DNA of 64,000 bases. It comes from an uncultured Acetatifactor sp. (lineage in GTDB: Bacteria; Bacillota; Clostridia; Lachnospirales; Lachnospiraceae). Position numbers and translations under genes: made by a program. The notes under the pieces are model-generated. The model was not told where the DNA came from. It searched no databases and saw only the letters and a program-made list of their open reading frames with translations. Location: positions 1 to 64,000 of the forward strand of contig CATKYJ010000020.1 in NCBI GenBank assembly GCA_949840885.1. Direction: 5' to 3'. How positions within the stretch are numbered: the first letter of the stretch is position 1; every line of letters starts with the position of its first letter. Shown piece after piece: positions 17,136 through 47,356 of the stretch.

Positions 17136-18491
17136 TTACTCTGTCTCATTGGCGGCAAAGGCCATTTCTTTCATCAGGCCCTCTCTGGCCAGCATGGACT
17201 TTAAGACCTGGGCGTCCGTGGTGGCATCAAATACTGCGTCCTGGAACAGGGTGTTCAAGAGCTCCCTGAATGCGGCGTTGATGGTGTCCAGGGTATTTTC
17301 TATCTCGGCCTTGGCCTTTACGATATCCGGCCCGGGGGAGCTTATGCGGTCGAATTCCTCGTAGGACTCCACCAGCTTTAAGGTGGTTGGCAGATAATAG
17401 TTCATCAGCTTGTGCATCCGGGGCATCTGCTCCGGATGGATCCGCACGCTTTCAAAGATATCCTTTAACAGATTCTCCAGGCAGAACAGCTTTGAAGAGA
17501 TGACTTCGCCGGGAATCCTGTCGTTTAAGTTCCGGAGCTTGCGTATGTATTCCTGCCCCTCGCCCACCATGGTCTGCAGCTCGGACTCCTGCTCCCTGGA
17601 CACTTCCGGCGCGGGCTCGGGAGCCGACTGAGGAGTCCTGTCCTCCAAAGCCCTCCGGTTCTCCGTCTCCCTGAGCCTGCGGCTTTGCTCTGCTTCCAGA
17701 TACTGCCTGTATACCACGTCGTTTAGCATGAAGCAGGTCTTCTGCTGATCCAGATGCCCCTCGGGGAAAATGCCCAGAGCCAGCATCTTCTGGAGATCCC
17801 TGACTACATATTCCTCACTCTTGCCGGTTCCTGCCGCCAGCTTTGCCACCTCGCCGTATACCCTGTAGTCGCAAAGCTGGAGATAGCGCTGAGCCCGCTT
17901 CAGCCGTCTTTTCTGGCCGATTCCAAAGCGGATCATGCCGTAAAAGCCGGCCAGAAACAGGAAATTCACAATCCAGCCCCCCAGGGTGGTATCGCCCACG
18001 GCAAGGGCAACCAGCCGAAAGATCGTTATCAGCCCGGTGATCCCGAAGCCGATGCCGCCGAATACCTGGTACAGCACGTTTGAGACGCTGCCCACCTTTT
18101 TTACCTTGATGACGGGAAGCTCTTTGCGGGGCGGCCGGGTCTGCTGAACGGGCGCAGACTGATTTCCCATGCGCTGCTGCCTTTTCTGCCATTCCTGCCT
18201 CAGCCGCTCCTGCCTGGCGCGCTCCCGCTCCATGGCCCTCTGCTGCCAAATGGGAATCACAGGCGTTCCCTGATCCCGCTTCTGCTCCGGCGCATCCTCA
18301 AGGCCATTGCGCTCGCTCCATTGTTTTCCCCCACTGCTTGGAGGGACGTGCTTTCCCGCCGCGTTGATGGCATCCGTCACGGTCTGGGATACCAAATCAT
18401 TCAAATTCTTGAAATCCCCGCTCTGCAGAGCCTCGGAAAGAGCATTCTTCAACTGCTCCCCCGTCCCATTCCAATTTCGACTATCACTCAT
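17136..18491 (-). CDS. XpaC-like 5-bromo-4-chloroindolyl phosphate hydrolysis protein
   Basis: About 451 residues of the XpaC family, named for a weak phosphatase phenotype; its true role is probably in the envelope stress pathway with TelA. It has a charged, Gln/Arg-rich N-terminal linker (RERARQERLRQEWQKRQQRM), two adjacent membrane helices at about residues 135-195 (GGIGFGITGLITIFRLVALAV and WIVNFLFLAGFYGMIRFGIG), and a cytosolic C-terminal domain. There, the C-terminal third has the family helical region (LNDRIPGEVISSKLFCLENLL...LMNYYLPTTLKLVESYEE). GAAGGT before the ATG at 18491 supports that start over the earlier MMKKV start. Confidence 0.88.
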   Translation of the reverse strand: MSDSRNWNGTGEQLKNALSEALQSGDFKNLNDLVSQTVTDAINAAGKHVPPSSGGKQWSERNGLEDAPEQKRDQGTPVIPIWQQRAMERERARQERLRQEWQKRQQRMGNQSAPVQQTRPPRKELPVIKVKKVGSVSNVLYQVFGGIGFGITGLITIFRLVALAVGDTTLGGWIVNFLFLAGFYGMIRFGIGQKRRLKRAQRYLQLCDYRVYGEVAKLAAGTGKSEEYVVRDLQKMLALGIFPEGHLDQQKTCFMLNDVVYRQYLEAEQSRRLRETENRRALEDRTPQSAPEPAPEVSREQESELQTMVGEGQEYIRKLRNLNDRIPGEVISSKLFCLENLLKDIFESVRIHPEQMPRMHKLMNYYLPTTLKLVESYEEFDRISSPGPDIVKAKAEIENTLDTINAAFRELLNTLFQDAVFDATTDAQVLKSMLAREGLMKEMAFAANETE

Positions 18492-20006: not shown

Positions 20007-20145
20007 GGCCATTCTCCGATCATAGACTTAAGTATGACCTATCTTATCACAATCGGTTCCGGAATTCAATGTGAAAACGAATATGGGAAGCGGGGAATGA
20101 AACGCGTTTGTACATAGTACGGCGCGGATTCGGGCATACTGTGGT

Positions 20146-20730
20146 ATGATGAAAAAGAAATTAGTCCACGAATTTGATTATTATGTACTGCTATTTTTTG
20201 CCATGGCATTCATAGGCTGGATCTGGGAGGTGCTTTTGTACCTCTTTACCGAGCACGCATTTATCAACAGAGGGGTGTACCGGGGGCCGTACCTGCCCAT
20301 TTACGGGGCAGGGGGGCTCCTTTTGTGCTTTCTGCTTAGAGGCTTTCGGAAGAAGCCCGTGAGGGTATTTTTTCTGTCCATGCTCATCTGCTCCGCGCTG
20401 GAGTACTTTACCAGCTGGTTCCTGGAGCGGCTCTGGGGCATCAGGTGGTGGGATTATGGCGGGCACGCTTTTAACCTGAACGGGAGAATCTGCCTGGCGG
20501 GGGCGGTGGTCTTCGGACTGGGCGGAACGGGGCTTGTGTGCGTGCTTTTGCCGCTCTATGAAAAGCTGTATGGAAAAATTTCAAAAAAATGGCGTTTTGC
20601 GCTGTGCCTGCTTCTGCTGGCGGTCTTCATCGCGGACGCCACCTACTGTGCCGTCCGGCCCAATACGGGACGGGGGATTTCCCAGGGGGCTGAGGGCGGC
20701 GCGGGGGGCTGTGCTGGGAAGTTGCGTTGA
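20146..20730 (+). CDS. CmpB-type membrane protein (putative ABC permease family PF06541)
   Basis: A 194-residue membrane protein with about five helices matching the CmpB-type family, called putative ABC transporter permease although no transport role is proven. Family features are FIGWIWEVLLYLF, NRGVYRGPYLPIYGAGG, LEYFTSWFLERLWGIRWWDY and FNLNGRICLAGAVVFGLGG. The C-terminal tail (SQGAEGGAGGCAGKLR) is low complexity. The same domain occurs at the C terminus of the protein at 45539-47356, so the two are paralogous. The ribosome binding site is poor. Confidence 0.85.
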   Translation: MMKKKLVHEFDYYVLLFFAMAFIGWIWEVLLYLFTEHAFINRGVYRGPYLPIYGAGGLLLCFLLRGFRKKPVRVFFLSMLICSALEYFTSWFLERLWGIRWWDYGGHAFNLNGRICLAGAVVFGLGGTGLVCVLLPLYEKLYGKISKKWRFALCLLLLAVFIADATYCAVRPNTGRGISQGAEGGAGGCAGKLR

Positions 20731-32959: not shown

Positions 32960-34069
32960 ATGGAGCAATACATAAAACCCCCGGTGGAGATCCGGTACCG
33001 GGAGGAGCTGGAGGCATTGAAAGCAAATGATACGGGCAGTAAGCCGGAGAACTGGCAGATGTCGCCCAGGGCGGTGCGGACCTTTATCCTGGGAAGCCAG
33101 AAGCCCATACTGTATAACGGAAAAGAATATACCATAGAAAAGAAATACTTCGGCAATGACGCCCTGGTGGAGCGCTGCATCGTGACCTTGGCGGGCAACA
33201 GGGGACTGATGCTGGTAGGAGAGCCGGGCACGGCTAAGACCATGCTCTCGGAATTCCTCTCCGCAGCCATCAGCGGGGTCAGCACCAACACCATCCAGGG
33301 TACCGCGGGCACCACCGAGGACATGATAAAATATTCCTGGAACTACGCGCTGTTGCTGGCAAAGGGGCCAAGCAGAGAGGCCCTTGTACCGTCGCCTCTG
33401 TACGTGGGGATGGAGAAAGGGATCCTGACCCGGTTCGAGGAGATTACCAGGACGCCGGCGGAGATTCAGGACAGCCTCATCAGCGTGCTTTCCGACAAGG
33501 TGTTAAACGTTCCGGAGCTGGGGGATGAGGGGTTCCTCTTCGCAAAGCCGGGCTTTAACGTCATCGGCACCGCCAATACCAGAGACAAGGGCGTCAATGA
33601 GATGAGCAGCGCCTTAAAACGGCGGTTCAATTTCGAGACGGTGATGCCTGTGCGGGAGGCCGCTATGGAGAAACGAATCATTGTAAACGAGGTGGAGAAG
33701 CTGGCGGCGGAGAGCCGCATAGCCATGGAAGTGGACGAGGACGTGGCGGAGATATTGGCTTCCACCTATCACGAGCTGCGGGAGGGGACTTCTTCCTACG
33801 GGCACAGAATCGATAAGCCCTCGGCGGTGATGAGCACGGCTGAGGCAGTGTCGGTGTACTACCAGGCTATGATCACAGGCTACTATTACGGGGACGGGAC
33901 CCTGAGCATGGACAGCCTGGTGCAGAATCTGGTAGGAGCAATCTCCAAGGAAAACAAGGATGATTTGGAAAAGGTGAAAGGGTATTTCAACACGGTCATA
34001 CGGGACAAGAGCAGCAAAGAGGGCGGACTATGGAAAGAATATTACGAAGCAAGGAAATGGCTGAGATAA
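32960..34069 (+). CDS. MoxR-family AAA+ ATPase (YehL-like)
   Basis: A 369-residue ATPase of the MoxR/RavA group that usually remodels partner complexes together with a VWA protein. Walker A is GEPGTAKT (about residue 91), with alanine replacing the usual second glycine. The Walker-B region reads ILTRFEEITRTP. Sensor 1 and arginine finger are in NVIGTANTRDKGVNEMSSALKRRF. A C-terminal helical lid follows. AGGAGG lies eight bases before the ATG. Its neighbours encode DUF5682, VWA, SWIM and DUF4132 proteins, the same set of protein types as E. coli yehL, yehM, yehP, yehQ and yehI. That combination makes it the likely motor of this system. Confidence 0.9.
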   Translation: MEQYIKPPVEIRYREELEALKANDTGSKPENWQMSPRAVRTFILGSQKPILYNGKEYTIEKKYFGNDALVERCIVTLAGNRGLMLVGEPGTAKTMLSEFLSAAISGVSTNTIQGTAGTTEDMIKYSWNYALLLAKGPSREALVPSPLYVGMEKGILTRFEEITRTPAEIQDSLISVLSDKVLNVPELGDEGFLFAKPGFNVIGTANTRDKGVNEMSSALKRRFNFETVMPVREAAMEKRIIVNEVEKLAAESRIAMEVDEDVAEILASTYHELREGTSSYGHRIDKPSAVMSTAEAVSVYYQAMITGYYYGDGTLSMDSLVQNLVGAISKENKDDLEKVKGYFNTVIRDKSSKEGGLWKEYYEARKWLR

Positions 34070-36558
34070 TCCTGCTTCCCGTCCGGCACCACAGCCCGGC
34101 CTGCGCGTTTCATGTGGAGCGGACGATTGAAAAGCTGCGGCCCGGGGTGGTTCTGGTAGAGGGGCCGGAGAACGCGGACGGGCTGATCCCGGTGATGGTG
34201 CACGAGGAGACAAAGGCGCCCTTTGCCATCTACTACTCCTATCATGACCAGTCGGAGCGGATATCGGAGGAGAAAGCCCATTATAAATGCTACTATCCCT
34301 TTCTGGACTATTCGCCGGAACTGGCGGCCTTTCGGGCGGGGAAGCGCCTGGGGATTCAGACGGCCTTTATCGATCTGCCCTACGGGGATATTTTGGCGGC
34401 CTCCGGCCAGGGAAAGGGCCTGCGGAAAGAGGAAGAGGAGAAGAGCAATTACAATGACGACTATCTGCTGTCCCGAAACGAGTACCTGCGGCAGCTCTGT
34501 GAACGGACAGGGATGAGGAATTTTGACGAATTCTGGGAAAAATATTTTGAACTGGGCGGAATGCAGGAGGAGAGCGACAGATGGTTCGGGAACCTCCTGG
34601 TATACTGCGGGCTGGCCAGGGAGAATACGTCCCGGGAGTCCATGGAGGAGGACGGATGCCTGGCCAGGGAAAGGCATATGGCGGAGCGGATCCGGGAGCA
34701 TGCCGGGCGGCTGGGTGCCGGCGGCACAGTGCTGGTGGTCACCGGAGGGTTCCATACGCCCGGGCTTAAGGCGCTGCTTACGGGTGAAGATGAGAGCGTG
34801 GTGCTATCTGCAATGCTAAAGCCATGGCAGGGTGCAGTAGAAATTGCGGACGCAGGGCAGACGTCGGAGGCGGCGCCAGGTGCGGTGTCTGCGAAAACTG
34901 ACAGCGTTGGAGCGGCTTCGCAGGAGGTGCCGGCGGGAGGCAGCAGAATCGCCAAGGTCCCGGAAAAAGACCAGGGCGTGTATCTGATGCCCTATTCCAT
35001 GGAGGCCGCGGATGCCTTAAACGGCTATGCCAGCGGCATGCCCTTTACCGGATTTTATCAGAAGATATGGGAGCAGGTAGCGGAATCGGACACCCCTTAT
35101 GGGGACGCGGTTCTGGACATGATCGTGGCATCGGGCAAGGAGACCAGGCGCAAGGAGGGATATCTGTCCACCTACGATGAAATCTGCGCCTGCGCCATGG
35201 CCAAAGGCCTTGCCGCGCTCCGGGGGAAAAAGGAGCCGGGAGCCTACGAACTCCTGGACGTGGTGCTGTCCTCCTTTGTGAAAGGGGAGTACAATCTGGC
35301 CTCCGACACGCCCGTCCGCATTCTGCGAAAACATATGACCGGAAATGCCGTCGGCGCTTTGTGCCGCCAGGCGGATGTGCCTCCCATTATTTTTGACTTT
35401 CAGGAGGAATGCAGGCGGTTTGGGCTGAAGATCACCTCCACTTTGGAAACGGAGGTCACCCTGTCCATTTTTTCCAAAGAAAAACACAGGCAGCAGAGCA
35501 TGTTCTTCCACCGGATGCAGTATCTGAACACTGCCTTTGCAAAAAGGACAAAGGGCCCCAACCTCCAGTTGAAAAAGGACAGGAACCTGATGCGGGAGAT
35601 CTGGAAATACAAGTGGAACACCCAGGTGAACGCCGCGCTGATCGATGTATCCGTCTATGGGGCCACCATAGAGGAGGCTGCGGTGAGCCTGGTCAGGGAA
35701 GAACTGAAAAAGGAACTGGGGGCCAAAGAGGGCGCCCTGCTGTTGACAAAGGTCTTTGAGATGGGGATCCGGGATCAGATGCAGTCGGTATTCGACAGGG
35801 TGCATCAGTTGATGCTGGCGGACACGGATTTCTATTCCACTGCGGAGGCGGTAAGGAGCCTTATGATGATGGAGGAGCTGGGGAAGCTTTACGGCTCTGC
35901 GCTGGAATTCGGGGAGCTGATCGCCATAGGCAGCAGGAAGCTGATCAGCCTTTTGCCCGCCATGACCAGGATCAAGGACGAGGATTTAGACCCCTGCATG
36001 AATGCGCTGAAGCTTCTGTACCGTGTCACGGGACGAGAGGGGATGAACGGACAGGAGAGGGATGACTACATATATGCCTTGCAGAAGATGACGCTTGATG
36101 GGGAGATCAATGCAGGCCTGAACGGCTGCGTCCACGGCATCCTCTACGGAATCGGCAGAGAGACGGCAGGGGAGATCGAGATGGTCTGCAAAGGATACCT
36201 GAATGGGACAAAGGAGCAGCTGTTCTCCACGGCACAGTTTTTCAGGGGGCTGTTTTTTTCGGCCAGGGATCTGGTGTTCATCGGGGAACAGTTCATCCGG
36301 ATGTTAGACGGATTTTACGGGACGGTTTCCCAGGAGGAATTCATGGAGCTCCTGCCCAGGCTGCGCATGGCCTTTGCCTATTTCACGCCCCGGGAGATCG
36401 ACCGGATTGCCGGTATGGCCGCGGGGGTTCACGGAAAGACCGGCCGGGACATCATGGAGAGGCAGGAGGTCTTCCCGGATTGGTATGCTTATGGGAAAGA
36501 ACTGGATGAGTATGTGAAAGGGCAGATGGAGTGCGCCGAAAAGACTTTGCCTCTTTAG
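34030..36558 (+). CDS. DUF5682-family protein (YehM-like)
   Basis: An 842-residue cytosolic protein overlapping the MoxR gene by 40 bases; an ATG at 34057 is an alternative start, giving a 13-base overlap. The N-terminal LLPVRHHSPACAFHVERTIE and VVLVEGPENADGLIPVM are the DUF5682 signature. A TraB/PrgY-like fold has been proposed for such segments, which I cannot verify. GTVLVVTGGFHTPGL around residue 235 is also typical. An Ala/Gly-rich linker lies at about 275-310 and the remainder is helical. Tight coupling with the ATPase suggests that the two products work as a complex. Biochemical function unknown. Confidence 0.82.
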   Translation: MERILRSKEMAEIILLPVRHHSPACAFHVERTIEKLRPGVVLVEGPENADGLIPVMVHEETKAPFAIYYSYHDQSERISEEKAHYKCYYPFLDYSPELAAFRAGKRLGIQTAFIDLPYGDILAASGQGKGLRKEEEEKSNYNDDYLLSRNEYLRQLCERTGMRNFDEFWEKYFELGGMQEESDRWFGNLLVYCGLARENTSRESMEEDGCLARERHMAERIREHAGRLGAGGTVLVVTGGFHTPGLKALLTGEDESVVLSAMLKPWQGAVEIADAGQTSEAAPGAVSAKTDSVGAASQEVPAGGSRIAKVPEKDQGVYLMPYSMEAADALNGYASGMPFTGFYQKIWEQVAESDTPYGDAVLDMIVASGKETRRKEGYLSTYDEICACAMAKGLAALRGKKEPGAYELLDVVLSSFVKGEYNLASDTPVRILRKHMTGNAVGALCRQADVPPIIFDFQEECRRFGLKITSTLETEVTLSIFSKEKHRQQSMFFHRMQYLNTAFAKRTKGPNLQLKKDRNLMREIWKYKWNTQVNAALIDVSVYGATIEEAAVSLVREELKKELGAKEGALLLTKVFEMGIRDQMQSVFDRVHQLMLADTDFYSTAEAVRSLMMMEELGKLYGSALEFGELIAIGSRKLISLLPAMTRIKDEDLDPCMNALKLLYRVTGREGMNGQERDDYIYALQKMTLDGEINAGLNGCVHGILYGIGRETAGEIEMVCKGYLNGTKEQLFSTAQFFRGLFFSARDLVFIGEQFIRMLDGFYGTVSQEEFMELLPRLRMAFAYFTPREIDRIAGMAAGVHGKTGRDIMERQEVFPDWYAYGKELDEYVKGQMECAEKTLPL

Positions 36559-36580
36559 TGCCATCGCGCAGCGATTTAAT

Positions 36581-36606
36581 ACAATAGAAAGCAGGCTTTC
36601 TATTGT
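36581..36606. repeat. 11-bp perfect hairpin between the DUF5682 and VWA genes
   Basis: ACAATAGAAAG (36581-36591) and CTTTCTATTGT (36596-36606) pair perfectly around CAGG. No T-run follows. The core matches the inverted repeat at 8882-8918. It could fine-tune expression of the VWA gene or protect mRNA ends after processing. Confidence 0.65.
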
Positions 36607-36624
36607 CATGAATAGGAGAAAGAT

Positions 36625-37758
36625 ATGGCAGACGAGCAGGAGATTTTGAACCGCTGGAGGCTGGTGCTGGGGAAATATGCGTCAGGGCAGATTTCCTTTT
36701 CCTCCGGGGCTGTGAACTTAAACTATATGGACATGGAAAACGTGCTGGACTATCTGTATTCCAGGGAGTATGGGGAAGAACAGGAGATACGAAAAGACCG
36801 CATGGGCGGCAGCGAGGGCTCCCAGCTTACGGTGCCTGACTGGCTGCATGAGATCAAGCGGCTTTTCCCCAAGCGGACGGTGGAGGTTTTAGAGCGCCAT
36901 GCCCTGGAAAAATACGGCATGACGGAGCTGCTAACGGACCCGGAGGTACTGCGGAAGCTGGAGCCCAACAAGGAGCTGCTGAAGACGATTCTGGAACTGA
37001 AGCAGATGATGAAAGGCGAGGTGCTGTCCCTGGCAAGGGAGATCGTGCGTAAGGTGGCGGAGGAGATCGCAAGGAAGCTGGAGCAGGAGGTGCGGGTTTC
37101 CTTTTTCGGACAGATCAACAGGAATGCCAGCAGCCCGGTGAAGTCCGCCCGGAATCTGGACATGAAAAAGACCATCCGCTTGAACCTGAAGAATTACGAC
37201 AGCGAGCGGCAGCAGATTGTGCTGAAAAACGTCTATTTTAATTCGAGAATGAAGAAATACAATCAGTGGCGGGTGATCATCTGTGTGGATGAAAGCGGCT
37301 CCATGCTGGATTCCGTCATCCACAGCGCCATCATGGCAGGGATCTTCGCAAAGCTTCCCATGCTGGACACCAAGCTGGTGATCTTCGACACCAATGTGGT
37401 GGACTTAAGCGGTTATGTGGAGGATCCTGTGGAGACGCTGATGAGCGTGCAGCTTGGCGGCGGCACCAATATCGCCGGGGCTTTAAGCTACTGCGAGGGG
37501 CTCATCGACTTTCCTTTCCGGACAATGGTGGTGCTGGTGACAGACCTGTACGAGGGCGGCGGATACCAGCGGCTCTACAGCACATCCAAGGGAATCATCG
37601 AAAGCGGCGCCAAGCTGGTGGTGCTCACCGCCCTGGACATGGACGCCAATCCCAACTACGACCGGAACGCCGCCCAGACCCTGTCGGACATGGGAGCTTT
37701 CGTAGGGGCCATGACGCCGGAGGAATTGGCGGGGTGGATTGGGAAGATGATTGCGTGA
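36625..37758 (+). CDS. VWA-domain protein, partner of MoxR ATPase (YehP-like)
   Basis: A 377-residue protein. The first 200 residues are helical; the C-terminal 170 residues form a von Willebrand factor A domain. Its metal-ion adhesion site is complete: DESGSM near residue 222, the threonine in GGGTNIAGAL and the aspartate in VLVTDLYEGGG. Such proteins bind MoxR ATPases and recruit clients (compare ViaA with RavA). AGGAG lies six bases before the ATG. It sits in the middle of the yeh-like set, separated from DUF5682 by a hairpin. Confidence 0.92.
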   Translation: MADEQEILNRWRLVLGKYASGQISFSSGAVNLNYMDMENVLDYLYSREYGEEQEIRKDRMGGSEGSQLTVPDWLHEIKRLFPKRTVEVLERHALEKYGMTELLTDPEVLRKLEPNKELLKTILELKQMMKGEVLSLAREIVRKVAEEIARKLEQEVRVSFFGQINRNASSPVKSARNLDMKKTIRLNLKNYDSERQQIVLKNVYFNSRMKKYNQWRVIICVDESGSMLDSVIHSAIMAGIFAKLPMLDTKLVIFDTNVVDLSGYVEDPVETLMSVQLGGGTNIAGALSYCEGLIDFPFRTMVVLVTDLYEGGGYQRLYSTSKGIIESGAKLVVLTALDMDANPNYDRNAAQTLSDMGAFVGAMTPEELAGWIGKMIA

Positions 37759-37873
37759 GGGGCTTCTATAATAAGAGTCCCGGCTCCTGCAAACATGGAC
37801 TGGGTGCATCTTTGGAAAGATACAATAGAACTAGATAATAGAAAAGGAAAAATTCTTCCAGGAGGAAAGAAAT

Positions 37874-38869
37874 ATGTACATCGCAAACAGAACACGATAC
37901 GACCGCATGCAGTACAACCGTTGCGGGGCCAGCGGCCTGAAGCTCCCGGCAGTGTCTTTGGGGCTGTGGCACAATTTCGGCTCCAACGGCAATTTCGACA
38001 ACATGCTGGACATGTGTCAGACCGCGTTTGACAATGGCATCACCCATTTCGACCTGGCCAACAACTACGGCCCCGTGTACGGCGCGGCGGAGGAGAACTT
38101 CGGCCGCATCCTGAAAAAGAGCCTTGGCGTCTACAGGGACGAGCTGGTGATCTCCACCAAGGCCGGATACGACATGTGGCCCGGGCCTTACGGCGACTGG
38201 GGCAGCAAGAAGTATCTGGTGGCCAGCCTGGATCAGAGCCTGCGCAGGATGGGACTGGACTACGTTGACATCTTCTATCACCACAGGCCGGATCCTGAGA
38301 CGCCGTTAGAGGAGACCGCCAGGGCTCTGGACGGCATCGTGCGAAGCGGCAAGGCGCTATATGTAGGGATATCCAATTACAATAAAGAACAGACCATAGC
38401 CATCGCGAAGCTGTTCCGTGAAATGGGCACACCCTTTATCATCAATCAGAGAAGCTACTCCATGCTGAACCGCAGCATCGAAACCGATGGACTGAAAGAC
38501 TATGCGGCAAAAAACGGAATCGGCATTATCACATTCTGCCCGCTGTCCCAGGGGCTTCTGACAGATCGCTATATAAACGGCATTCCGGCAGACAGCCGCG
38601 TCCGCACGGACGGAAGGTTCCTGAACGAGAATTCCATTCAAGAGGAGACTCTAAACAAGGTGCGGGCGCTGAACGAAATCGCCAAAGAGCGTGGACAGAG
38701 CCTGGCCCAGATGGCGCTGGCATGGATTCTCCGGGACGGCGACATCACCAGCGTCCTCATCGGCGCGTCAAAGCCCTCCCAGATACTGGACAATGCGGGC
38801 ATGCTTGGCAATACGGAGTTCGACCAGGCGCAGCGGGAGCGGATTGACCGGATACTGGGAGATCGGTAG
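37874..38869 (+). CDS. Aldo/keto reductase (YghZ/L-glyceraldehyde-3-phosphate reductase-like)
   Basis: An NADPH-dependent oxidoreductase of 331 residues. The catalytic tetrad is recognisable: Asp in ITHFDLANNYG, Tyr in the same loop, Lys in LVISTKAG and His in YVDIFYHHRPD. The nucleotide site includes TSVLIGASKPSQILDNAG. The N terminus RYDRMQYNRCGASGLKLPAVSLGLWHNFG resembles YghZ-type enzymes that reduce L-glyceraldehyde 3-phosphate and methylglyoxal. AGGAGG precedes the start. It interrupts the yeh-like gene set, has its own terminator downstream and may be an independent insertion. Confidence 0.93.
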   Translation: MYIANRTRYDRMQYNRCGASGLKLPAVSLGLWHNFGSNGNFDNMLDMCQTAFDNGITHFDLANNYGPVYGAAEENFGRILKKSLGVYRDELVISTKAGYDMWPGPYGDWGSKKYLVASLDQSLRRMGLDYVDIFYHHRPDPETPLEETARALDGIVRSGKALYVGISNYNKEQTIAIAKLFREMGTPFIINQRSYSMLNRSIETDGLKDYAAKNGIGIITFCPLSQGLLTDRYINGIPADSRVRTDGRFLNENSIQEETLNKVRALNEIAKERGQSLAQMALAWILRDGDITSVLIGASKPSQILDNAGMLGNTEFDQAQRERIDRILGDR

Positions 38870-39012
38870 GAAGACGGTTATCCGTATATGCGGGAAGTGT
38901 AGAGGCTGATTTGCTTTCAGCTATGCTCCCGAGCGGTCAAATTCGCCACCGATTCATGAGGCCTAAGCCGCTCAGTGCATTAGAAGCATGACTGAAATAC
39001 AGGTTTACAAAG

Positions 39013-39046
39013 ACAGCACCGGCATAACGCGCGCGGGGCTGTTTTT
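39013..39046 (+). terminator. Intrinsic terminator after the aldo/keto reductase gene
   Basis: ACAGCACC (39013-39020) pairs with GGGGCTGT (39035-39042) with one mismatch, followed by a run of T to 39046. It separates the reductase transcript from the SWIM gene. Confidence 0.6.
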
Positions 39047-39105
39047 GCACGCATAAAAGACCTTTACAGCCGTCAAAAATACATGGCCTTTCATTCTCTT
39101 TTGAC

Positions 39106-39134
39106 TTGACACAGGGTATGGCAGGAATTACCAT
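39106..39134 (+). promoter_or_regulatory. Possible promoter of the SWIM-DUF4132 pair
   Basis: TTGACA at 39106-39111, a 17-base spacer and TACCAT at 39129-39134. The -35 is perfect and the -10 weak. It lies 22 bases before the SWIM gene start and after a terminator, so a separate transcript is plausible. Confidence 0.4.
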
Positions 39135-39155
39135 ATTAATAGAAAGGGGATTTAT

Positions 39156-41621
39156 ATGGATGAGTGGAGCAAGCGGCTTGCCGGCATAGACGACGACTAT
39201 CTTGTCGGTATCAGCAATAAGGGAATCGTAAAACGCGCATATAAGGATAAGGAAGAGTCGGCGGCTGAGATTGTCGGCATGGAGGAAGAAGCCCAGGTAA
39301 AGGTAGGCGAGGAGACGGTGACAGTGCGTTTCCCTCTGGGAGAGAGCAAATGCACCTGTCCCTCCAGAAGCATCTGCCGCCATGTGGTACAGGCCATACT
39401 GACCCTGAAAGAAAGCTGCGGACGGCAGGAAAGGGACGCGGCAGACCGGAAAGCCGCGGGGGAGACTGGCACAGAGGACATGGCTGCAGGCCAGACTTCC
39501 ATGGGGCAGGCAGGACAGGCTGCGCCGGGACAGAGCATGGCAGAGGAAGCGGCCGCAGGACAGACTGCGCCGGGACAGAACATGGCAGAGGAAGCAGCCG
39601 CAGGACAGACTGCGCCGGGACAGGGCATGGCAGAGGAAGCGGCCGCAGGACAGACTGTGCCGGGGCAGTCCGCTGCAGGAAAGCTTTCCGCAGACCCGGA
39701 AGCCGGACAGTCACAGGATCCCCAAAAGGGACAGACGGCAGTCCTGAAAGAAATCAGCGAATACCCTTTCGCCAAGCTAAAAAAGGCGCTGGGAAACCGA
39801 TACTTCCAGACCTTTGTCGGCCAGGCGGCAGGAGACATGCGCCCCAGGATACAATACACATCTGTAGTCACCGTATCATTGCCGGAGCCGGGGATAACGG
39901 TAAAGCTTCTGTCCCCTCTGGAATATTCCACCTGTACCTGCCATAAAAAGGAATTGTGCAGACACAAGGCCGCGGCCATCCTCTGGTGCCAGCTGGAGGC
40001 AGGTGCCCTGAATCCGGAAGCCCTGCAAAAGGAAGCGGCCCAGGATCCTGTCTATGACCTGGACGAGGTGAGAGATGCAGCCGGACAGATGTGCGCCTTT
40101 CTGGAGGAACTGATGGACACCGGACTGTCCCGGGTCTCCCCGGACGTGCTGGACTATCTGGAGCGGCTGGCCATCATTGCCCACAATGCAGGGCTCGCCC
40201 GGTTCGAGGGGTATTTCAGGGCGCTGGCGGACTCCTATGACAGATACCTGAAGCGGAAAGCGGCGTTTCAGGCCAGGAGCCTGATGGAACAGATCACAAG
40301 GCTTTACCGCAGGGCGCAGAAGCTGGGACAGGCGCAGGATGCGAGCCAGGTGGCGGCGCTGGCAGGGGAATTCCGCGCGGACTATCTTCCGGTGGGGAAT
40401 CTGGACTTGATAGGAATTGCGGCGGAGCAGTACAAAAGTCAGACCGGGTACGAGGGGGAGACCATATACTTCCTGGAGGAGCATACCGGAAAGTGGTACA
40501 CCTATACCAATGCAAAGCCCGTGTTCTATGACGGGGCAAGGCGCAGGGGCAGCAGGGAAAGCAGCGGGGCCCTGCAGGGGCCCGCCCCCTGGGAGCTTGG
40601 GATTTCCATGGAGAAGCTGCTAAAGATCAGGATCCGCCTCACCGGAGCGAAATGCGATGGGAGGAACCGCCTCTCCTCCAGCCAGGAAACCCGTGGAGAG
40701 ATCAGGGGGGAGCAGGGACTACATATATCTGATATTAAAGGCTGGTATTACCGGGATTTCGGGAAACTGTTTCAGGAGCGGATCGGGCTGCAGGGGAAAA
40801 GATCCCCTGGGGCGCAGGGAAACCGGACGCCGGAGGATGAGCCGACACGAAAAGATGAGCTGATAGCGGAGGATGGCCTGACATCGGAGGGCGGCTCAAT
40901 GCCGCAGACGCAGGGGAATGCCGCAAAATCAGGGGAGCTCGTCTTCGTCCAGCCGGATTCCTGCGCCAAAGCGGAATTCTCCCAGACAGGCCAGCAGCTG
41001 ACGCTGCCGCTGTACGACAGGGCAGGGCATGAACTGCTGGTGGAAGTCACTTACTCCAAGCAGGAAGCCGGCACTATCCGGTATCTGGAGCGGATATCGG
41101 AAAAAAAGCTTCCCTGCTTTCTGGGCAAAGTCTTCCTGCGGGACGGGAGGCTGCGGATGTACCCGGTAGACCTGCTGGACATAGACGCATCGGAGGCTGC
41201 ATGGGACTGGCAGGACAGTGGGACGGCAGACCGGAAAAATGCGGCAGCAGGCAGGAAAAATACAGCAGATGAAAGCCTGCCGGGTGACAGCGCCTTGGCC
41301 CGCCAGACAAAATACAACATCATGGAGGACATGGCGGAGGAAATCCTCCTGCTGATGGAGGATTTATGCCAGAGCGGCTTTGGAACAGTCCATGACAGCA
41401 CCTTAAAAGACCTGCGGAAAGCAGCCGGGGTGACAAAACAGTACGGCATGGGCTATCTGTCCCAGCTGATAGGAAAGCTGGCGGACGAGACAGAAGCAGG
41501 CCGCCACCAGATGAAAAAGACAGTCTCTTCTATGTACAGAGACTACACGGATATAATCGAATATATGAACCTTTTAAGACAAAAAACCGCCTACGACAGA
41601 GGCGCGGATTACTATGGGTGA
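39156..41621 (+). CDS. SWIM zinc-finger protein (YehQ-like)
   Basis: An 821-residue protein with two SWIM-type CxCx(n)CxH zinc motifs: CTCPSRSICRH at about residues 65-75 and CTCHKKELCRH at about 259-269. SWIM domains bind DNA or proteins. Between them is a tandem 15-residue repeat (TAPGQNMAEEAAAGQ type), probably a flexible linker. The remainder is mostly helical, with Gln/Gly/Glu-rich low-complexity inserts around 560-600 and 695-710. AAGGGG lies six bases before the start. The DUF4132 gene follows after 51 bases. Together with the MoxR, DUF5682 and VWA genes it forms a yeh-like set. No enzymatic motif seen. Confidence 0.85.
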   Translation: MDEWSKRLAGIDDDYLVGISNKGIVKRAYKDKEESAAEIVGMEEEAQVKVGEETVTVRFPLGESKCTCPSRSICRHVVQAILTLKESCGRQERDAADRKAAGETGTEDMAAGQTSMGQAGQAAPGQSMAEEAAAGQTAPGQNMAEEAAAGQTAPGQGMAEEAAAGQTVPGQSAAGKLSADPEAGQSQDPQKGQTAVLKEISEYPFAKLKKALGNRYFQTFVGQAAGDMRPRIQYTSVVTVSLPEPGITVKLLSPLEYSTCTCHKKELCRHKAAAILWCQLEAGALNPEALQKEAAQDPVYDLDEVRDAAGQMCAFLEELMDTGLSRVSPDVLDYLERLAIIAHNAGLARFEGYFRALADSYDRYLKRKAAFQARSLMEQITRLYRRAQKLGQAQDASQVAALAGEFRADYLPVGNLDLIGIAAEQYKSQTGYEGETIYFLEEHTGKWYTYTNAKPVFYDGARRRGSRESSGALQGPAPWELGISMEKLLKIRIRLTGAKCDGRNRLSSSQETRGEIRGEQGLHISDIKGWYYRDFGKLFQERIGLQGKRSPGAQGNRTPEDEPTRKDELIAEDGLTSEGGSMPQTQGNAAKSGELVFVQPDSCAKAEFSQTGQQLTLPLYDRAGHELLVEVTYSKQEAGTIRYLERISEKKLPCFLGKVFLRDGRLRMYPVDLLDIDASEAAWDWQDSGTADRKNAAAGRKNTADESLPGDSALARQTKYNIMEDMAEEILLLMEDLCQSGFGTVHDSTLKDLRKAAGVTKQYGMGYLSQLIGKLADETEAGRHQMKKTVSSMYRDYTDIIEYMNLLRQKTAYDRGADYYG
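39522..39680 (+). repeat. 45-bp coding tandem repeat in the SWIM gene
   Basis: Three nearly identical 45-base units at 39522-39566, 39567-39611 and 39612-39656, followed by a partial fourth. Each encodes 15 residues of the type APGQxMAEEAAAGQT. The repeat preserves the reading frame, so copy number changes would lengthen or shorten the linker between the two zinc motifs. Confidence 0.9.
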
Positions 41622-41672
41622 CAAAATGGAATCAAAGAATGATATAAAAGAAAGGACAAGGAGGAATCCAAA

Positions 41673-44600
41673 ATGATCAACCCGCAAAACCAAAGAGTAG
41701 CAAGAATCATGGAGTATTTCCAGCAGATGAATCTCTTCTCTGAGGAGGAACTTACTTGGATGGAGGACTACCTGAGCGGAGCAGAGGACGAGGAGGGACT
41801 TAAAAAGCTGCAGTTCCATGACCTGACTCTGGTGCCGTCTGATCTGGCTGTCAAAACCCGGGAACTGGTAAGGAAAGCGCCCGATGAAGAGGCCGGAAAA
41901 ATGAGCAGCCTGCTATTTGCCATAGGCCAGGCTACCTGCCAAAGCCTGGTTCCGGCCATGTATGAGTATACCCACAACAGAAAAGACGTGATCCTGCCCC
42001 GACCGGATATGAAAGCAGCGGTCTATGCGGTGGAAATCGGCGCTTCGGAATATATGATCAGCCGTGCCTCCATCCAGAGCCTGATGAAGCTGGCGGAAAG
42101 CAACCCGGAGATCATAAAGAAAGCCTACTCCTACCAGAAAGGCAAGCAGGCCAACAGCAGATTGATTTTACTGATGTGCTATTTCCAGATGAAATATCCC
42201 AATGTCAAACTGGTGGAGGAAGGCCAGTCCGGCATCCTGGCCGGGGTGGGCAGACTCCTTGGACTGGGGGAAAAGGAAGGGGGAGCCATCCGGGAGATTC
42301 CAAAGGAGGACATGGAACTGCTAAAGGAATACGGGGAGATTTTGGCCGGGAGTATAGGCCAGCTCTACAATGGACAGATGCCGCGCCTGGAAATGAATGA
42401 AATTCAAAATGCAATATATCATGATGACGTTAATGAGAGAATCCTCAAGCTGGCGGACAAAAACCTGTCGGTGAACCGCTATGCGCTGCGGCTCCTGGGC
42501 GGGACAGCTTTCGTCAATTACGGCCAGTCACCGCTTTTGAAGAATACCCTGCGGATATGCCTGGCGGCCAGTCCGGTGGCAATGCTTGACACCATGGCAA
42601 ATATGGACTTTCGGGACGACATGGACAGAAACGGAGGAGACTACGATAAGATTTTCGGCGTGAACGGAAAGAAGCTCATTGCCTGGGCGGCAGGGAAAAG
42701 CTGGACGAAAATCCTGCGGGGACAGTTTGAACATAACAGGGAAGCTTATCTGGAGTGCATGAAGACTGCGGACTTCGATTCCTTTAACCAGATGAACGCG
42801 GTGATCAAAAAGATGGATCCGGGGCTGTACCAGAAGCGGATGGGGGAGGACTTGTCCAGACAGCAGACCCAGCTTATCCGGGCTTTGGTCCAGATTGTGG
42901 ACGCCCAGGCCAAGGGGGCGGTACAGGAGTACCTGGAGGGCACAAAAGGGATAGAAAGCCTCTACCCTTATGAGGACAAACTGCAGGGAAGCACCAATTA
43001 CCGCTGGGGCGGAACGCATTGGAACATTCTGCAGAGTTACCAGAACGCATACGGCTATGACGACTTAAGCGACCGTTGCGAGACATTCCTGATGCTGTAT
43101 CGGGGATACGCCAATACCACCAGCCTGCGGGTGGGCACTGAAATCAAGGGCGACAAGGTAAAGAGGCTCTTCGAGGCAGTGGACAAGAAAGGCTTAAGCC
43201 TGGATCGGCAGCTAAACAGCTACGCGGATGCCTATGACTCTCTGTATATGGACAGATGGAAATCAGAACTCCAGAATGTGGCAAGGGAGATTTTCCGCAG
43301 ATATCTGAAGATCAGACGAGAAGAGGCGCTGACCGCGTTCAGAGAGGCAGGCAGCACGGGAAGATGTCTGGGACTGATCATTCTGGGGGAGGAGGCCGAC
43401 CAGAATAAGGAAGCCATTCTGGGCTTTACCCAGGACAGCTCCAAGGCAGTCAGAGAGGAACTTCTGAAGATTCTGTCCAGTCAGAAAGGCTGGGAGCCGG
43501 ACATTTGTAAGCTCCTGTCCTCCAAAAAGGCAGTGGAGCGGGAAGTGGCCATCCGGGTGCTGACAGGCTGGGACAGCGAGGCTTACGCAGAGACCTTGAG
43601 GGGGTGCCTGGAAAAGGAGAAGAACGGCAAGGTCAGGACATTGCTGGAGACCGTGCTCCATATAAGCAACCAAAACGGCGAGGCAGGCGCGGGCCAAAAG
43701 GCCCTGACCAAAGAAGATCTGGTAAAAGACCTCCACAAGGGCGGCAAGAAGCGCTCCCTTGCCTGGGCCTATGAGACGCCTTTTTCCGTGGTGCATAGGA
43801 AAGATGGAGAGGAGGCCGGTGAAGAGTATCTGCAGGCCGTGCTCCTAAGCTATGCCTCCATGTCCCCCTGCGGCGTAAGCCCCACGGCAGCCACCCTGGC
43901 GGAGGACTTAAATGCCAGGGAGTTTGCGGTCTATGTGGGAGAACTCTTCGACAAATGGATGGAGACCGGGGCGGAGTCCAAGAAGCGCTGGGTGCTTTAT
44001 GCATCGTCCATCCACGGCGGCGCGGACATGGTGAGAAAGCTCCATCATCAGATTCAGGAGTGGCCCAATGCCGCCAGAGGGGCCATTGCCTCTGAGGCAG
44101 TCCAGGCCCTGGCCTTAAGCCCTGAGGCCCAGGCGCTGCTCATCGTGGACGGCATCTCCCGGAAATTCAAGTTCAAGCAGGTGAAAGCAGCCGCCGGCAA
44201 GGCGCTGGAATTCGCCGCCTCCCAGCTTGGCATCACCACGGAGGAACTGGCCGACAGGATTGTGCCTGACTTGGGCTTCAATGAGAATATGGAGCGCATA
44301 TTCGACTATGGGGAGAGGAAGTTTACCGTGGCCATCACCACTGCCCTGGAGATAGAAGTCTTCGACGAGAGCGGCAAGAAGCTGAAAAACCTCCCTGCGC
44401 CGGGCAAGCGGGACGATGAGGAAAAGGCGGCGGCAGCTTATGAGGAATTCAAACAGATGAAAAAGCAGATGAAGACCACCGTAAGCAGCCAGAAGATGCG
44501 CCTGGAGATGGCCCTGTCCACCGGCAGGCAGTGGAGCGTGGAGGCCTGGAAGAATCTGTTTGTGAAAAATCCCGTGATGCACCAGTTCGCCACCGGACTG

Positions 44601-45392
44601 ATCTGGGGCGTTTATGAAGACGGGAAGTTAGTAAGCACTTTCCGGTATATGGAAGACGGCTCCTTTAACACGGAGGACGAGGAGGAGTTTGAACTGCCCG
44701 TTGGGCAAAGCGATGCAGGGCAGCCGGAAACCAGCGGACAGGACGCGGTCGGAAGCGGGGAGGGCGCTGCTGCCCGGCAGCCCCTTATAGGGATCGTGCA
44801 CCCCATCGAGCTTTCGGAGGATTCCCGTAAGGCCTGGAAAGAGCAGCTGGAGGACTACGAGATCGCGCAGCCCATCGAACAGCTTGAAAGGCCTATTTAC
44901 CGCAGGACAAAGGAAGAGGAGGACAGCAAGAGCCTGGAGCGCTTTGGCGGCTGCATCGTCAATGACCTGTCCTTAGGCGGGAAGCTGATGACCATGGGGT
45001 GGTACCGCGGCTCTGTCCAGGATGCCGGCGGGTTCTACTGCTACTACAGGGAAGATAAGGAACTGGGCCTTGGGGTGGAACTTCATTTCTCCGGCAGCTT
45101 CGTGGGCGGGGAGAATGAAGATGTCACCGTATACGAGGCCAGGTTCTACAACGCGGGAGGAGTAGCTCTTGCCGGAAACGGCGGCGTCATGACAGGGGCT
45201 GGCAATTCCCGGCCAGATGCCGCGCCCGCAGGCATAAAGCGGGGCAGCTATGTGTACGATGAGGCCAACGACAGCAATTCCTATTTCCTGAAAGAAGTGC
45301 CGGAGCGGTACTTCAGCGAGATCGTACTGCAGCTGGCCAAAGCCACCGCAGCCAGCAAGGAAAAGGATCCCAACTGGAAGTCCCAAAAATAA
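41673..45392 (+). CDS. DUF4132-domain protein (YehI/MolR-like)
   Basis: A giant cytosolic protein of 1239 residues. The N-terminal two thirds are helical with HEAT-like repeats (KAVREELLKILSSQKGWEPDICKLLSSKKAVEREVAIRVLTGW). The C-terminal part carries the DUF4132 domain: FATGLIWGVYEDGKLVSTFRYMEDGSF, then IVHPIELSEDSRKAWKEQLEDYEIAQPIEQL, then GGCIVNDLSLGGKLMTMGWYRG and VELHFSGSF. This corresponds to E. coli YehI and MolR. AAGGAGG precedes the ATG by eight bases. Its long repeat scaffold suggests that it could be a client-binding platform for the MoxR-VWA machinery. Molecular activity unknown. Confidence 0.85.
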   Translation: MINPQNQRVARIMEYFQQMNLFSEEELTWMEDYLSGAEDEEGLKKLQFHDLTLVPSDLAVKTRELVRKAPDEEAGKMSSLLFAIGQATCQSLVPAMYEYTHNRKDVILPRPDMKAAVYAVEIGASEYMISRASIQSLMKLAESNPEIIKKAYSYQKGKQANSRLILLMCYFQMKYPNVKLVEEGQSGILAGVGRLLGLGEKEGGAIREIPKEDMELLKEYGEILAGSIGQLYNGQMPRLEMNEIQNAIYHDDVNERILKLADKNLSVNRYALRLLGGTAFVNYGQSPLLKNTLRICLAASPVAMLDTMANMDFRDDMDRNGGDYDKIFGVNGKKLIAWAAGKSWTKILRGQFEHNREAYLECMKTADFDSFNQMNAVIKKMDPGLYQKRMGEDLSRQQTQLIRALVQIVDAQAKGAVQEYLEGTKGIESLYPYEDKLQGSTNYRWGGTHWNILQSYQNAYGYDDLSDRCETFLMLYRGYANTTSLRVGTEIKGDKVKRLFEAVDKKGLSLDRQLNSYADAYDSLYMDRWKSELQNVAREIFRRYLKIRREEALTAFREAGSTGRCLGLIILGEEADQNKEAILGFTQDSSKAVREELLKILSSQKGWEPDICKLLSSKKAVEREVAIRVLTGWDSEAYAETLRGCLEKEKNGKVRTLLETVLHISNQNGEAGAGQKALTKEDLVKDLHKGGKKRSLAWAYETPFSVVHRKDGEEAGEEYLQAVLLSYASMSPCGVSPTAATLAEDLNAREFAVYVGELFDKWMETGAESKKRWVLYASSIHGGADMVRKLHHQIQEWPNAARGAIASEAVQALALSPEAQALLIVDGISRKFKFKQVKAAAGKALEFAASQLGITTEELADRIVPDLGFNENMERIFDYGERKFTVAITTALEIEVFDESGKKLKNLPAPGKRDDEEKAAAAYEEFKQMKKQMKTTVSSQKMRLEMALSTGRQWSVEAWKNLFVKNPVMHQFATGLIWGVYEDGKLVSTFRYMEDGSFNTEDEEEFELPVGQSDAGQPETSGQDAVGSGEGAAARQPLIGIVHPIELSEDSRKAWKEQLEDYEIAQPIEQLERPIYRRTKEEEDSKSLERFGGCIVNDLSLGGKLMTMGWYRGSVQDAGGFYCYYREDKELGLGVELHFSGSFVGGENEDVTVYEARFYNAGGVALAGNGGVMTGAGNSRPDAAPAGIKRGSYVYDEANDSNSYFLKEVPERYFSEIVLQLAKATAASKEKDPNWKSQK

Positions 45393-45538
45393 TTCCGAAA
45401 GATAAGGGGAAGCAGTCCCTTTAAGAGAGCGCGCGTCCACGATATGGAAAGCTATCGTGCAAATCTGCTTCTTGTCAATATAAACAGCAAGGACGTATAA
45501 TGACTTCAGAAAAAAACGACAGAATAGGAAGCGAGAAG

Positions 45539-47356
45539 ATGCACGCAAGAAGACAAATGAAGGCGAATGCCAAAAAAGTACTGAGACAACACTATTTCCT
45601 GTTCCTGCTGCTATGCCTGGCGGCCTCGCTGTTAGGCGGGGAGCTGGTCATGTCCCGGACGGCAGGACAGGATGTGGTGGAGGATATGACGCCCCAGATG
45701 CGGGTCACCTTTACAGGCAGCATCGTCACCTCTTTCTCGGATTTCGTCATGGATGTGGCGGCAGGAAAAGGGGAAGAGCGAAAGCAGCAGATTCAGGAGA
45801 CCCAAGAGCGGTATGCAAACGAGCCCCAGGAGAGCGAGATCTTCGGCAGGAGCAGGGGCGTGCTGGCATCGGTGGTGAACAAACTCCTTTCGGGAGCCTA
45901 TCTGATGACCCTGCTGGTGGGCATACGGTCGCTGGTGGGAACGGACGAAGCAGCAGTAGTTATTATGCTGCTGGGAGCCCTTGCAGTCCTGTTCCTGTTT
46001 CAGGTATTTGTGGTGGGAGTGTGCCGGACAGTGGTCATAAGGGTGTTCCTGGAGGGGCGCTGCTATGAGAAAGTTCCGGGGCAGCGCATCTGGTTTTTGC
46101 TGCGGGTGAAAAAGTGGTGCCATGTGGCAGCGGCAAATTTCGTGACCGGGGTCTTTCTGACCTTGTGGGGCCTTACGCTGATAGGCGGCCTCATCAAATC
46201 CTACTCCTACCATCTGGTGCCCTACATCCTGGCGGAGAATCCCTCCGTCAAGACCCTGGACGCCATCACCCTGTCCAGGAAGCTGATGAAAGGCCATAAA
46301 TGGGAATGCTTCATGCTGGAACTGTCCTTTCTGGGATGGGATCTGCTGGGGATAGTTACGCTGGGGCTTTCCAATATCCTGTTTACCACGCCCTATAAAA
46401 TGGCGGTGCTGGGGGAGTATTATGCCCGGCTTCGCAGCCTGGGGCTGGAAGGGCATGTGGAAAATGCCGATCTTTTGAATGACAGATACCTGTTTGAAAA
46501 AGCGGATAAATCAGTTCTGCAGAGCGCATACGAGGACGTGGAGAGGGAATGCGCCCGGGAGCAGGAAAGGCTGCCGCAGCTGAAAGGAATGAGGCGTTTT
46601 TTGGCCGAAGCCTTTGGCCTGACCATTGGGCAGAAAGAAGAAATACAGGCTTTGGAGGAAGAGCAGAGCCATCGGTTCCTGCTGGAATACGAAAAAAAGG
46701 CATTGGAGGGGAGGATATACCCCACCAGGCTGCACCCCATCCCCGAGAAGCGCAAGCGGAAATGGGTGATGAGTCTGAACTACTTAAGGTGCTATTCCCT
46801 CTGGTCCGTGGTTTTGATGTTCTTTGCCCTGTCTTTTGTGGGGTGGCTCTGGGAGGTGGGGCTGCACCTGATCGCGGACGGGGAGTTTGTCAACCGTGGA
46901 GTCCTCCACGGCCCGTGGCTTCCCATCTACGGAACCGGCAGTGTGATGATGCTGTTGCTGCTCAACCGCTTCCGGCGTAAGCCTGTGCTGGAATTTGTGC
47001 TGGCGGTGGCGCTGTGCGGCAGCGTGGAGTATTTTACCTCCGTCTATCTGGAATTTGTCCACAATGGAACCAGGTGGTGGGACTATACGGGATACTTCTT
47101 AAATCTAAATGGCCGTATCTGTGCGGAGGGGCTGCTGGTGTTCGGTATCGGCGGCATGGCCATCGTCTATGTGCTGGCTCCCTTTCTGGACGGGCTGTTT
47201 CGCAGGATGCCGCCAAAGACACTGATGGCGGCAGGGCTGATTTTGCTGGTGCTCTTTGCCGCAGACCAGGTCTATTCTTCGGGACATCCCAACATGGGAA
47301 AAGGCATCACGGATTATGAGACAGGGGCGTCTGCAGGGGAGGTGATGGCGGGATGA
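45539..47356 (+). CDS. DUF975-CmpB fusion membrane protein
   Basis: About 605 residues from the ATG at 45539 (AGGAAG upstream); an ATG at 45500 is an alternative. The N-terminal half resembles DUF975, with MKANAKKVLRQHYFLFLLLCLAASLLG and the later YILAENPSVKTLDAITLSRKLMKGHKWECFMLELSFLGWDLLG. The C-terminal 160 residues are the CmpB-type membrane domain: FVGWLWEVGLHLI, NRGVLHGPWLPIYGTGSV, VEYFTSVYLEFVHNGTRWWDYTGYFLNLNGRIC. It overlaps the metallophosphoesterase gene by four bases, so the two products are probably made together. Integral membrane protein of unknown function, paralogous in its C terminus to the protein at 20146-20730. Confidence 0.82.
   Translation: MHARRQMKANAKKVLRQHYFLFLLLCLAASLLGGELVMSRTAGQDVVEDMTPQMRVTFTGSIVTSFSDFVMDVAAGKGEERKQQIQETQERYANEPQESEIFGRSRGVLASVVNKLLSGAYLMTLLVGIRSLVGTDEAAVVIMLLGALAVLFLFQVFVVGVCRTVVIRVFLEGRCYEKVPGQRIWFLLRVKKWCHVAAANFVTGVFLTLWGLTLIGGLIKSYSYHLVPYILAENPSVKTLDAITLSRKLMKGHKWECFMLELSFLGWDLLGIVTLGLSNILFTTPYKMAVLGEYYARLRSLGLEGHVENADLLNDRYLFEKADKSVLQSAYEDVERECAREQERLPQLKGMRRFLAEAFGLTIGQKEEIQALEEEQSHRFLLEYEKKALEGRIYPTRLHPIPEKRKRKWVMSLNYLRCYSLWSVVLMFFALSFVGWLWEVGLHLIADGEFVNRGVLHGPWLPIYGTGSVMMLLLLNRFRRKPVLEFVLAVALCGSVEYFTSVYLEFVHNGTRWWDYTGYFLNLNGRICAEGLLVFGIGGMAIVYVLAPFLDGLFRRMPPKTLMAAGLILLVLFAADQVYSSGHPNMGKGITDYETGASAGEVMAG

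Follow-up and report, generated by a model that had tools for sequence, protein, structure and literature searches.

Positions 32960-45392 of a 64,000-nucleotide stretch from an uncultured Acetatifactor sp. (contig CATKYJ010000020.1, assembly GCA_949840885.1; the window hereafter) are occupied by six open reading frames (ORFs) on the + strand. Five encode a MoxR-type AAA+ ATPase, a DUF5682 protein, a VWA_CoxE protein, a SWIM zinc-finger protein and a giant DUF4132 protein; the sixth encodes an aldo/keto reductase. Judged by sequence, the locus is an ordinary clostridial member of the YehL-type MoxR-VWA system, which is widespread and uncharacterised. The gene set itself was already known in E. 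coli, and the new point is a TIKI-like domain in DUF5682 that carries invariant residues. We propose, giving this about an even chance, that the MoxR-VWA motor loads, opens or regulates DUF5682 as a TIKI-fold hydrolase, with the SWIM and DUF4132 proteins serving recognition.

The window locus and the E. coli yeh genes

All five proteins were matched to E. coli K-12 Yeh proteins by BLASTP. The MoxR ATPase (32960..34069; AAA_5, 2e-32 in Pfam) was 47% identical to YehL over 364 residues, which places it in the YehL subfamily, a MoxR subfamily of its own according to the available text of PMC3893208. With the Pfam model bpMoxR, which marks the MoxR-vWA-beta-propeller ternary conflict systems, it scored 20.9 bits, below the cut-off of 27. 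The DUF5682 gene (34030..36558; PF18934, 1e-94) starts within the end of the MoxR gene, and its product was 25% identical to YehM over 804 residues. The VWA protein (36625..37758; PF05762, 2e-42) was 44% identical to YehP over 368 residues and holds a full metal ion-dependent adhesion site, read from the sequence as DxSxS (residues 222-226, 37288..37302), the GGGT threonine and the TD aspartate. In the SWIM protein (39156..41621; PF04434, 5e-6), similarity to YehQ was confined to the N-terminal 93 residues (26%, E 1e-8); two complete CxCx6CxH motifs start at residue 66 (39351..39383) and residue 260 (39933..39965). The Pfam model scores only the first; 11 related clostridial proteins that we compared have both as well. 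The linker between them (39489-39683) contains in-frame GQTAPGQxMAEEAAA-type repeats. The DUF4132 protein (41673..45392; PF13569, 6e-50) was 31% identical to YehI over the C-terminal 430 residues, the DUF4132 domain proper spanning residues 901-1110 (44373..45002). An AlphaFold2 (AF2) model of its residues 581-1239 (predicted local distance difference test, pLDDT, 84.3) suggests helical repeats and a beta-rich C-terminus in the modelled part, and HEAT_2 matched at 0.012, below the Pfam cut-off. Sequence searches of the PDB gave best matches of 0.011 for DUF5682 (a designed protein) and 0.024 for DUF4132, and none at 0.001 for MoxR or at 0.1 for VWA. Altogether, the five ORFs, their family assignments and their equation with the yeh cluster, all proposed in an earlier note made from the sequence alone, were borne out, including the full VWA site, the two SWIM motifs and the DUF4132 and SWIM calls under profile search.

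The K-12 order is yehF (WGR), yehH (a pseudogene), yehI (DUF4132), yehK, yehL, yehM, yehP and yehQ. The two loci thus share all five families on one strand, the MoxR-DUF5682-VWA-SWIM order and a two-motif SWIM protein. They differ in the position of DUF4132 (upstream of MoxR in E. coli, the last of the five in the window), in the extra genes (yehF, yehH and yehK in E. coli, the aldo/keto reductase in the window) and in the length of the SWIM protein (821 amino acids in the window, 614 in E. coli). Of 5426 E. coli genomes, 5162 carry 80% or more of the yehLMPQ stretch. The molR-to-yehQ region lies inside a deletion of the reduced genome DGF-298, as given in the accessible part of PMC10652928, and is therefore dispensable in that strain. 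Literature searches on the yeh gene names, DUF5682 and DUF4132, which mostly did not reach subscription papers, found no function for the set and no paper on DUF5682.

Conservation of the set and its exchangeable half

We scanned public genomes with a two-sequence YehL profile and retained the best 80 of 562 relatives, which are clostridial or unassigned bacteria by their titles and represent the closest relatives only. Counted over loci with enough DNA beyond MoxR, DUF5682 was present in 76/77, VWA in 69/72, SWIM in 63/67 and DUF4132 in 51/59. The full order MoxR-DUF5682-VWA-SWIM-DUF4132 was found in 51 of the 80 loci, and one more (L075) has all five genes with DUF4132 in front. The other 28 are partial sets, reaching SWIM (14), VWA (5) or DUF5682 (7), or consisting of MoxR alone (1) or MoxR-DUF5682-DUF4132 (1), and many incomplete loci end at contig ends. 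Orthology and this conservation of the five-part set make a joint function very probable. The gene order was as the earlier note had read it, with an aldo/keto reductase between VWA and SWIM. This reductase (37874..38869, +; Pfam 3e-70), of the L-glyceraldehyde-3-phosphate reductase type, reached 439.6 bits with the NCBIfam model PRK09912, slightly below its cut-off of 448. It had no match in any of the 80 related loci and is therefore a lineage-specific insert, which we judge to lie outside the system.

Co-occurrence was also measured in a collection of 72,556 plasmid records (several near-duplicates, 8 from E. coli, some chromosome-sized). The MoxR (E 1e-30) and VWA (E 1e-20) queries each matched 40 records, and all 20 MoxR records among the matches listed were also in the 40-record VWA list. 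DUF5682 (E 1e-10) matched 24 records, every one of them in the VWA list; DUF4132 matched 19, with 17 in the VWA list and 16 near other genes of the set, the exceptions being two Rhodococcus records outside the list and an Embleya record in which the genes are far apart. Among 200 genomes of the window's family, DUF5682 was present in 21, DUF4132 in 20 and both in 9 (P 2e-5). Together with the clostridial loci, these data show that the five families co-occur far above chance, the outcome on which the earlier reading of the neighbourhood had depended. At the class level, 3 of 245 genomes passed the DUF5682 cut-off.

Within the 200 genomes, DUF5682 types and all distances were sorted by eye after the tables were seen. 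Type A occurs in 14 genomes, in frames of 745-830 amino acids scoring 442-529 bits (except G340, 669 amino acids and 371 bits), and type B in 8, with 802-924 amino acids and 307-334 bits where matched in one piece (it was matched as two pieces in G308, G355 and G426); G416 carries both. All 8 type B genomes, and none of the rest of the 200, have DUF4132 frames of 1160-1291 amino acids, at a P of 1.8e-14 that is post hoc because of this sorting. In 7 of the 8 the pair lies on one contig within about 12 kb, G257 being the exception. The other 12 DUF4132 genomes have frames of 1487-1799 amino acids (one with an additional 364-residue piece), and only G354 among them has DUF5682. On the contig of DUF5682 and at most 7 kb from it, a Pfam SWIM match was found in 11 of 14 type A genomes and in 1 of 8 type B genomes (G308); the scarcity near type B means little, since this search missed the window's own SWIM gene. 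In G416 (L088, L089), a four-gene DUF4132 run lies beside DUF5682-VWA-SWIM, together with RloB-like and AAA_21 genes and an ADP-ribosylglycohydrolase-Macro fusion gene. The window genome itself has two more DUF4132 genes away from the MoxR locus (L090:25-2853 and L091:7142-10906), its DUF4132 match segments numbering four across three contigs.

Rearranged five-gene sets were found in alpha-, beta- and gammaproteobacteria and in actinobacteria. Iodobacter, Nonomuraea and Proteus (L093, L097, L098) have DUF4132-MoxR-DUF5682-VWA-SWIM. In Streptomyces (L095) a short DUF4132 protein and a 1639-residue protein precede MoxR, a DUF5682-VWA fusion and a SWIM-like protein (16.5 bits, below the cut-off of 19.6); P0087 is the second lineage with the DUF5682-VWA fusion. 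Rhizobiaceae (L092, L099) have MoxR-DUF5682-[WGR]DUF4132-VWA-SWIM, in which WGR is fused to DUF4132. The latter fusion, together with the WGR of yehF in E. coli, bears on a possible repair or stress system linked to ADP-ribosylation, in which WGR/DUF4132 would be the damage-sensing arm, WGR being a domain of poly(ADP-ribose) polymerases. In keeping with such a role, an ADP-ribosylglycohydrolase-Macro gene lies within the cluster of L089, and Acetatifactor muris (L004) has a NADAR gene between DUF5682 and VWA (13597-14127) and a gene of DUF3990, an ADP-ribosyltransferase-like family, between SWIM and DUF4132 (17761-18243). A Deinococcus DUF4132 gene is moreover strongly upregulated on DdrO depletion, according to the available text of PMC8533742. 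NADAR and DUF3990 relatives, however, were each found in only 1 of the 80 loci, Macro and WGR relatives in none, and none of nine window proteins scanned with Pfam has an ADP-ribose-type domain. Striking as they are in L004 and L089, such inserts are thus not a recurrent feature, and we regard this explanation as very unlikely.

In the window, adjacent DUF5682 and VWA_CoxE genes of one direction with SWIM and DUF4132 partners give the E. coli flavour of the system. A second flavour, with the order SWIM, a 600-670-residue protein, MoxR, DUF5682 and VWA, occurs in Hymenobacter (L094, whose DUF5682 is annotated in pieces), Fusobacterium (L096) and clostridial type A loci (L086, L087). Its SWIM proteins are 355-487 amino acids long with a single CxCPSRxxPCKH motif, three scoring above the Pfam cut-off and that of L094 just below (17.4 bits). 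The middle protein of L094 is a DUF5691 protein (338 bits). In the other three, a family of about 600-640 amino acids stands in the place of DUF4132 (L086:11744-13570, L087:11660-13465, L096:7053-8966; mutual E 1e-22 to 1e-54), with no Pfam family and no detectable similarity to DUF5691 or DUF4132. BLASTP between the L094 and L096 proteins gave E 0.018 and phmmer found no match of the L086, L087 and L096 proteins to DUF5691. Of these four loci only that of Hymenobacter carries DUF5691, which was discarded as a common stand-in for DUF4132. Since the second flavour, found in Hymenobacter, Fusobacterium and other Clostridia, combines a one-motif SWIM protein with another middle protein, the SWIM-DUF4132 half is replaceable, and the fixed core is MoxR-DUF5682-VWA.

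Individual loci carry further genes and losses. Clostridium ljungdahlii (L077:8734-12682) has a decaying copy: its MoxR gene looks intact, but DUF5682 and DUF4132 are reduced to fragments, and the stretch yielded neither VWA nor SWIM. In L012 and L014 a UvrD-family helicase gene (assigned by Pfam for L014) lies between MoxR and DUF5682. The SWIM C-terminal 110-180 residues or so, fused in the window, form a separate small ORF in at least 15 of 66 SWIM-bearing clostridial loci (such as L006, L008 and L010), possibly a sixth component. Upstream of the window SWIM gene, a promoter-like site (39106..39134, +; TTGACA-17-TACCAT, 10/12 match) is weak, with 12 sites scoring at least 9 in 13 kb against 6.8 in shuffles. 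Downstream of the locus, a CmpB/DUF975 membrane protein is encoded at 45500-47356, and window positions 20101-20727 resemble it (1e-51).

The patchy presence of DUF5682 in the window's family raises the question of an anti-phage or anti-plasmid conflict system, in which the MoxR-VWA motor would be the sensor, DUF5682 the effector and SWIM and DUF4132 the recognition parts. Decayed or displaced copies (L077, L012, L031), restriction-modification genes after the cluster in L093 and toxin-antitoxin or defence-type inserts in individual loci (AbiEii/DUF6088 in L006, HepT-like/NTase_sub_bind in L028, Schlafen-AlbA in L067, RhuM in L033, RloB and AAA_21 in L089, UvrD in L014) are consistent with it. 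The inserts form a mixture, however, and others are ordinary (methyltransferase, metallophosphoesterase, YunG). MoxR-vWA conflict systems have been published, but the available text of PMC7159879 makes no mention of yeh, SWIM, DUF5682 or DUF4132. The steady presence of yehLMPQ in E. coli is also unlike a fast-turnover defence island, only IetA ATPase models of PADLOC matched (at E 0.02) and none of 82 pattern matches in viral contigs encodes a relative. We consider a conflict system unlikely, though the locus may have some role in conflict or stress.

A TIKI/TraB-like domain in DUF5682

The motor-hydrolase proposal turns on DUF5682, which consists of an N-terminal TraB/ChaN (TIKI)-like domain (residues 10-250, 34057..34779) followed by a helical tail of about 500 residues. 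By profile, predicted fold and motifs, this N-terminus looks like a member of the TraB/PrgY/ChaN (TIKI) superfamily. In hhalign it matched TraB/PrgY at 96.3% (E 1.5e-9, against controls), and the AF2 model (pLDDT 83.3) predicts a parallel beta-sheet flanked by helices, as in the TIKI fold. The motifs are collinear with those of TraB, and their residues are conserved across 330 aligned sequences (counts over the rows that cover each position). R19-H20-x-S22-P23 (34084..34098) aligns to TAHxS, with R19, H20, S22 and P23 each in 326/326 rows; E44 of VEGP (34159..34161; 329/329) aligns to the IEL glutamate; R213-E214-x-x-M217 (34666..34680) aligns to ERDxYLA (R213 326/326, E214 325/326, M217 326/326); and H242 of GGFH (34753..34755; 327/327) aligns to GAxH. 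H20, E44 and H242 are at or near strand ends in the model and form a putative His-Glu-His hydrolytic site. Relative to the TIKI superfamily (TraB/PrgY, ChaN, Tiki, erythromycin esterase), DUF5682 differs by its helical tail, by RHxSP in place of TAHxS and by the lack of a Glu two positions before the first His, where the TraB set (A6) has Thr. Catalytic TIKI endopeptidases have a set of two His and two Glu, according to the available text of PMC6254334. As the further Glu is absent, we do not file DUF5682 as a protease of the two-His/two-Glu type, nor do we claim that the candidate site is that of a protease. The earlier note had spoken of a candidate client scaffold; given its hydrolase-like N-terminus, DUF5682 is not simply such a scaffold, and we propose it as the partner of the motor. 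A search of phage records yielded a single match, an unannotated 14 kb record labelled 'unverified' (L125, MT835988.1); it encodes a DUF5682 relative and may be mislabelled bacterial DNA.

Pfam matches of DUF5682 to ChaN and TraB fall below the cut-off, ChaN being the commonest weak match after its own family (10/43). This and the CoxE Pfam family of the window VWA protein would suit a chaperone that inserts metals or cofactors, as NorQ-NorD or CoxD-CoxE do; DUF5682 would then be no hydrolase but a ChaN-like protein that handles haem or metal. The molR/yehH pseudogene, of DUF4132 type, adjoins yehI, and molR is said, by the title of a paper, to be linked to molybdate use. Metal insertion is indeed served by MoxR-VWA pairs in the available texts of PMC13036017 and PMC9976466, but no MoxR-VWA client of the known kinds (NO reductase or CO dehydrogenase, for example) is among the nine window proteins scanned with Pfam. 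MoeA_N was found in 36 of the 200 genomes, yet in only 2 of the 21 with DUF5682 and in none of the 8 with the DUF5682-DUF4132 pair (G000 included; 89-99% complete), where about 1.4 of 8 would be expected by chance, so that no depletion is claimed. As the pair exists without a MoeA match in 8/8 genomes, molybdenum cofactor as the client is contradicted and a molybdenum cofactor/MolR role was rejected for this lineage. Cofactor insertion as a whole seems to us distinctly unlikely.

A proposed motor and hydrolase

MoxR-VWA pairs remodel or load client complexes, according to the available texts of PMC9976466, PMC13036017 and PMC3893208. In the reading that we favour, the YehL-type ATPase and its VWA_CoxE adaptor (YehP) would likewise act as an ATP-driven remodeller, by analogy with NorQ-NorD and RavA-ViaA. 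The DUF5682-VWA fusion and the overlap of the MoxR and DUF5682 genes suggest DUF5682 as the protein on which, or together with which, the motor works. DUF5682 (YehM), with its putative His-Glu-His site and helical tail, would thus be the dedicated partner of the YehL-YehP motor, which would load, open or regulate this putative hydrolase, ATP turnover controlling access to the TIKI-like site. The two-motif SWIM and DUF4132 proteins, or their counterparts in rhizobia (WGR-DUF4132) and in the second flavour, would recruit or present the substrate. This proposal builds on what was observed, namely the gene set, its orthology and order, the DUF5682-VWA fusion, the invariant residues and the profile and predicted-fold match to TraB; the physical complex, the hydrolytic activity, the direction of control, the substrate and the cellular trigger are the parts that we infer.

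Several points weigh against it. Gene linkage does not equal a complex. At least one part is missing despite enough DNA in 10 of the 80 loci (L005, L011, L012, L014, L017, L031, L035, L064, L067 and L077), inserts in L014 and L067 displacing the remaining parts beyond the stretch, and among the 40 plasmid records with VWA the window DUF5682 query missed 16, including some that carry a DUF5682 annotation. Close relatives of two queries make up most of the 330 aligned rows. The TraB alignment has little depth (effective number of sequences, Neff, 2.6), the full-length DUF5682 alignment (A3) matched TraB at only 88.6%, in a region made up of the last motif and an extension that is doubtful, and a Foldseek search with the model found nothing that reached E 0.001. 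At the place of the canonical Glu, two positions ahead of the first His, 325 of the 326 covering rows have V or I and the remaining one has L. Inactive superfamily members also exist, such as PMT, which lacks the motif, according to the available text of PMC6254334.

The locus resembles NorQ-NorD, CoxD-CoxE and RavA-ViaA in setting a MoxR AAA+ ATPase beside a VWA protein, here of the CoxE Pfam type. None of these three is known to have a TIKI-like, SWIM or DUF4132 partner. YehL further differs from them as a separate MoxR subfamily (PMC3893208, available text). A jumbo-phage MoxR-vWA-peptidase pair, described in the available text of PMC7824862, also couples MoxR-VWA to a hydrolytic domain, which is only predicted here; the VWA is fused to a metallopeptidase in the phage, whereas the partner here is DUF5682/TIKI-like and VWA-fused in some lineages only. 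A broader version, which we put forward tentatively and below even chances, pictures an AAA+ machine built to a new plan, present in at least five phyla and directed against stress or invaders. Its MoxR-VWA motor would switch or feed a TIKI-fold protease or esterase and its recognition arms would be exchangeable, being either a two-motif SWIM protein with WGR/HEAT-type DUF4132 or a one-motif SWIM protein with a 600-670-residue protein. The two flavours reveal which parts of the system are fixed (MoxR, DUF5682 and VWA) and which are exchanged, and the putative YehM active site (H20, E44 and H242 in window numbering) would give this widespread and unexplained system a concrete, testable activity.

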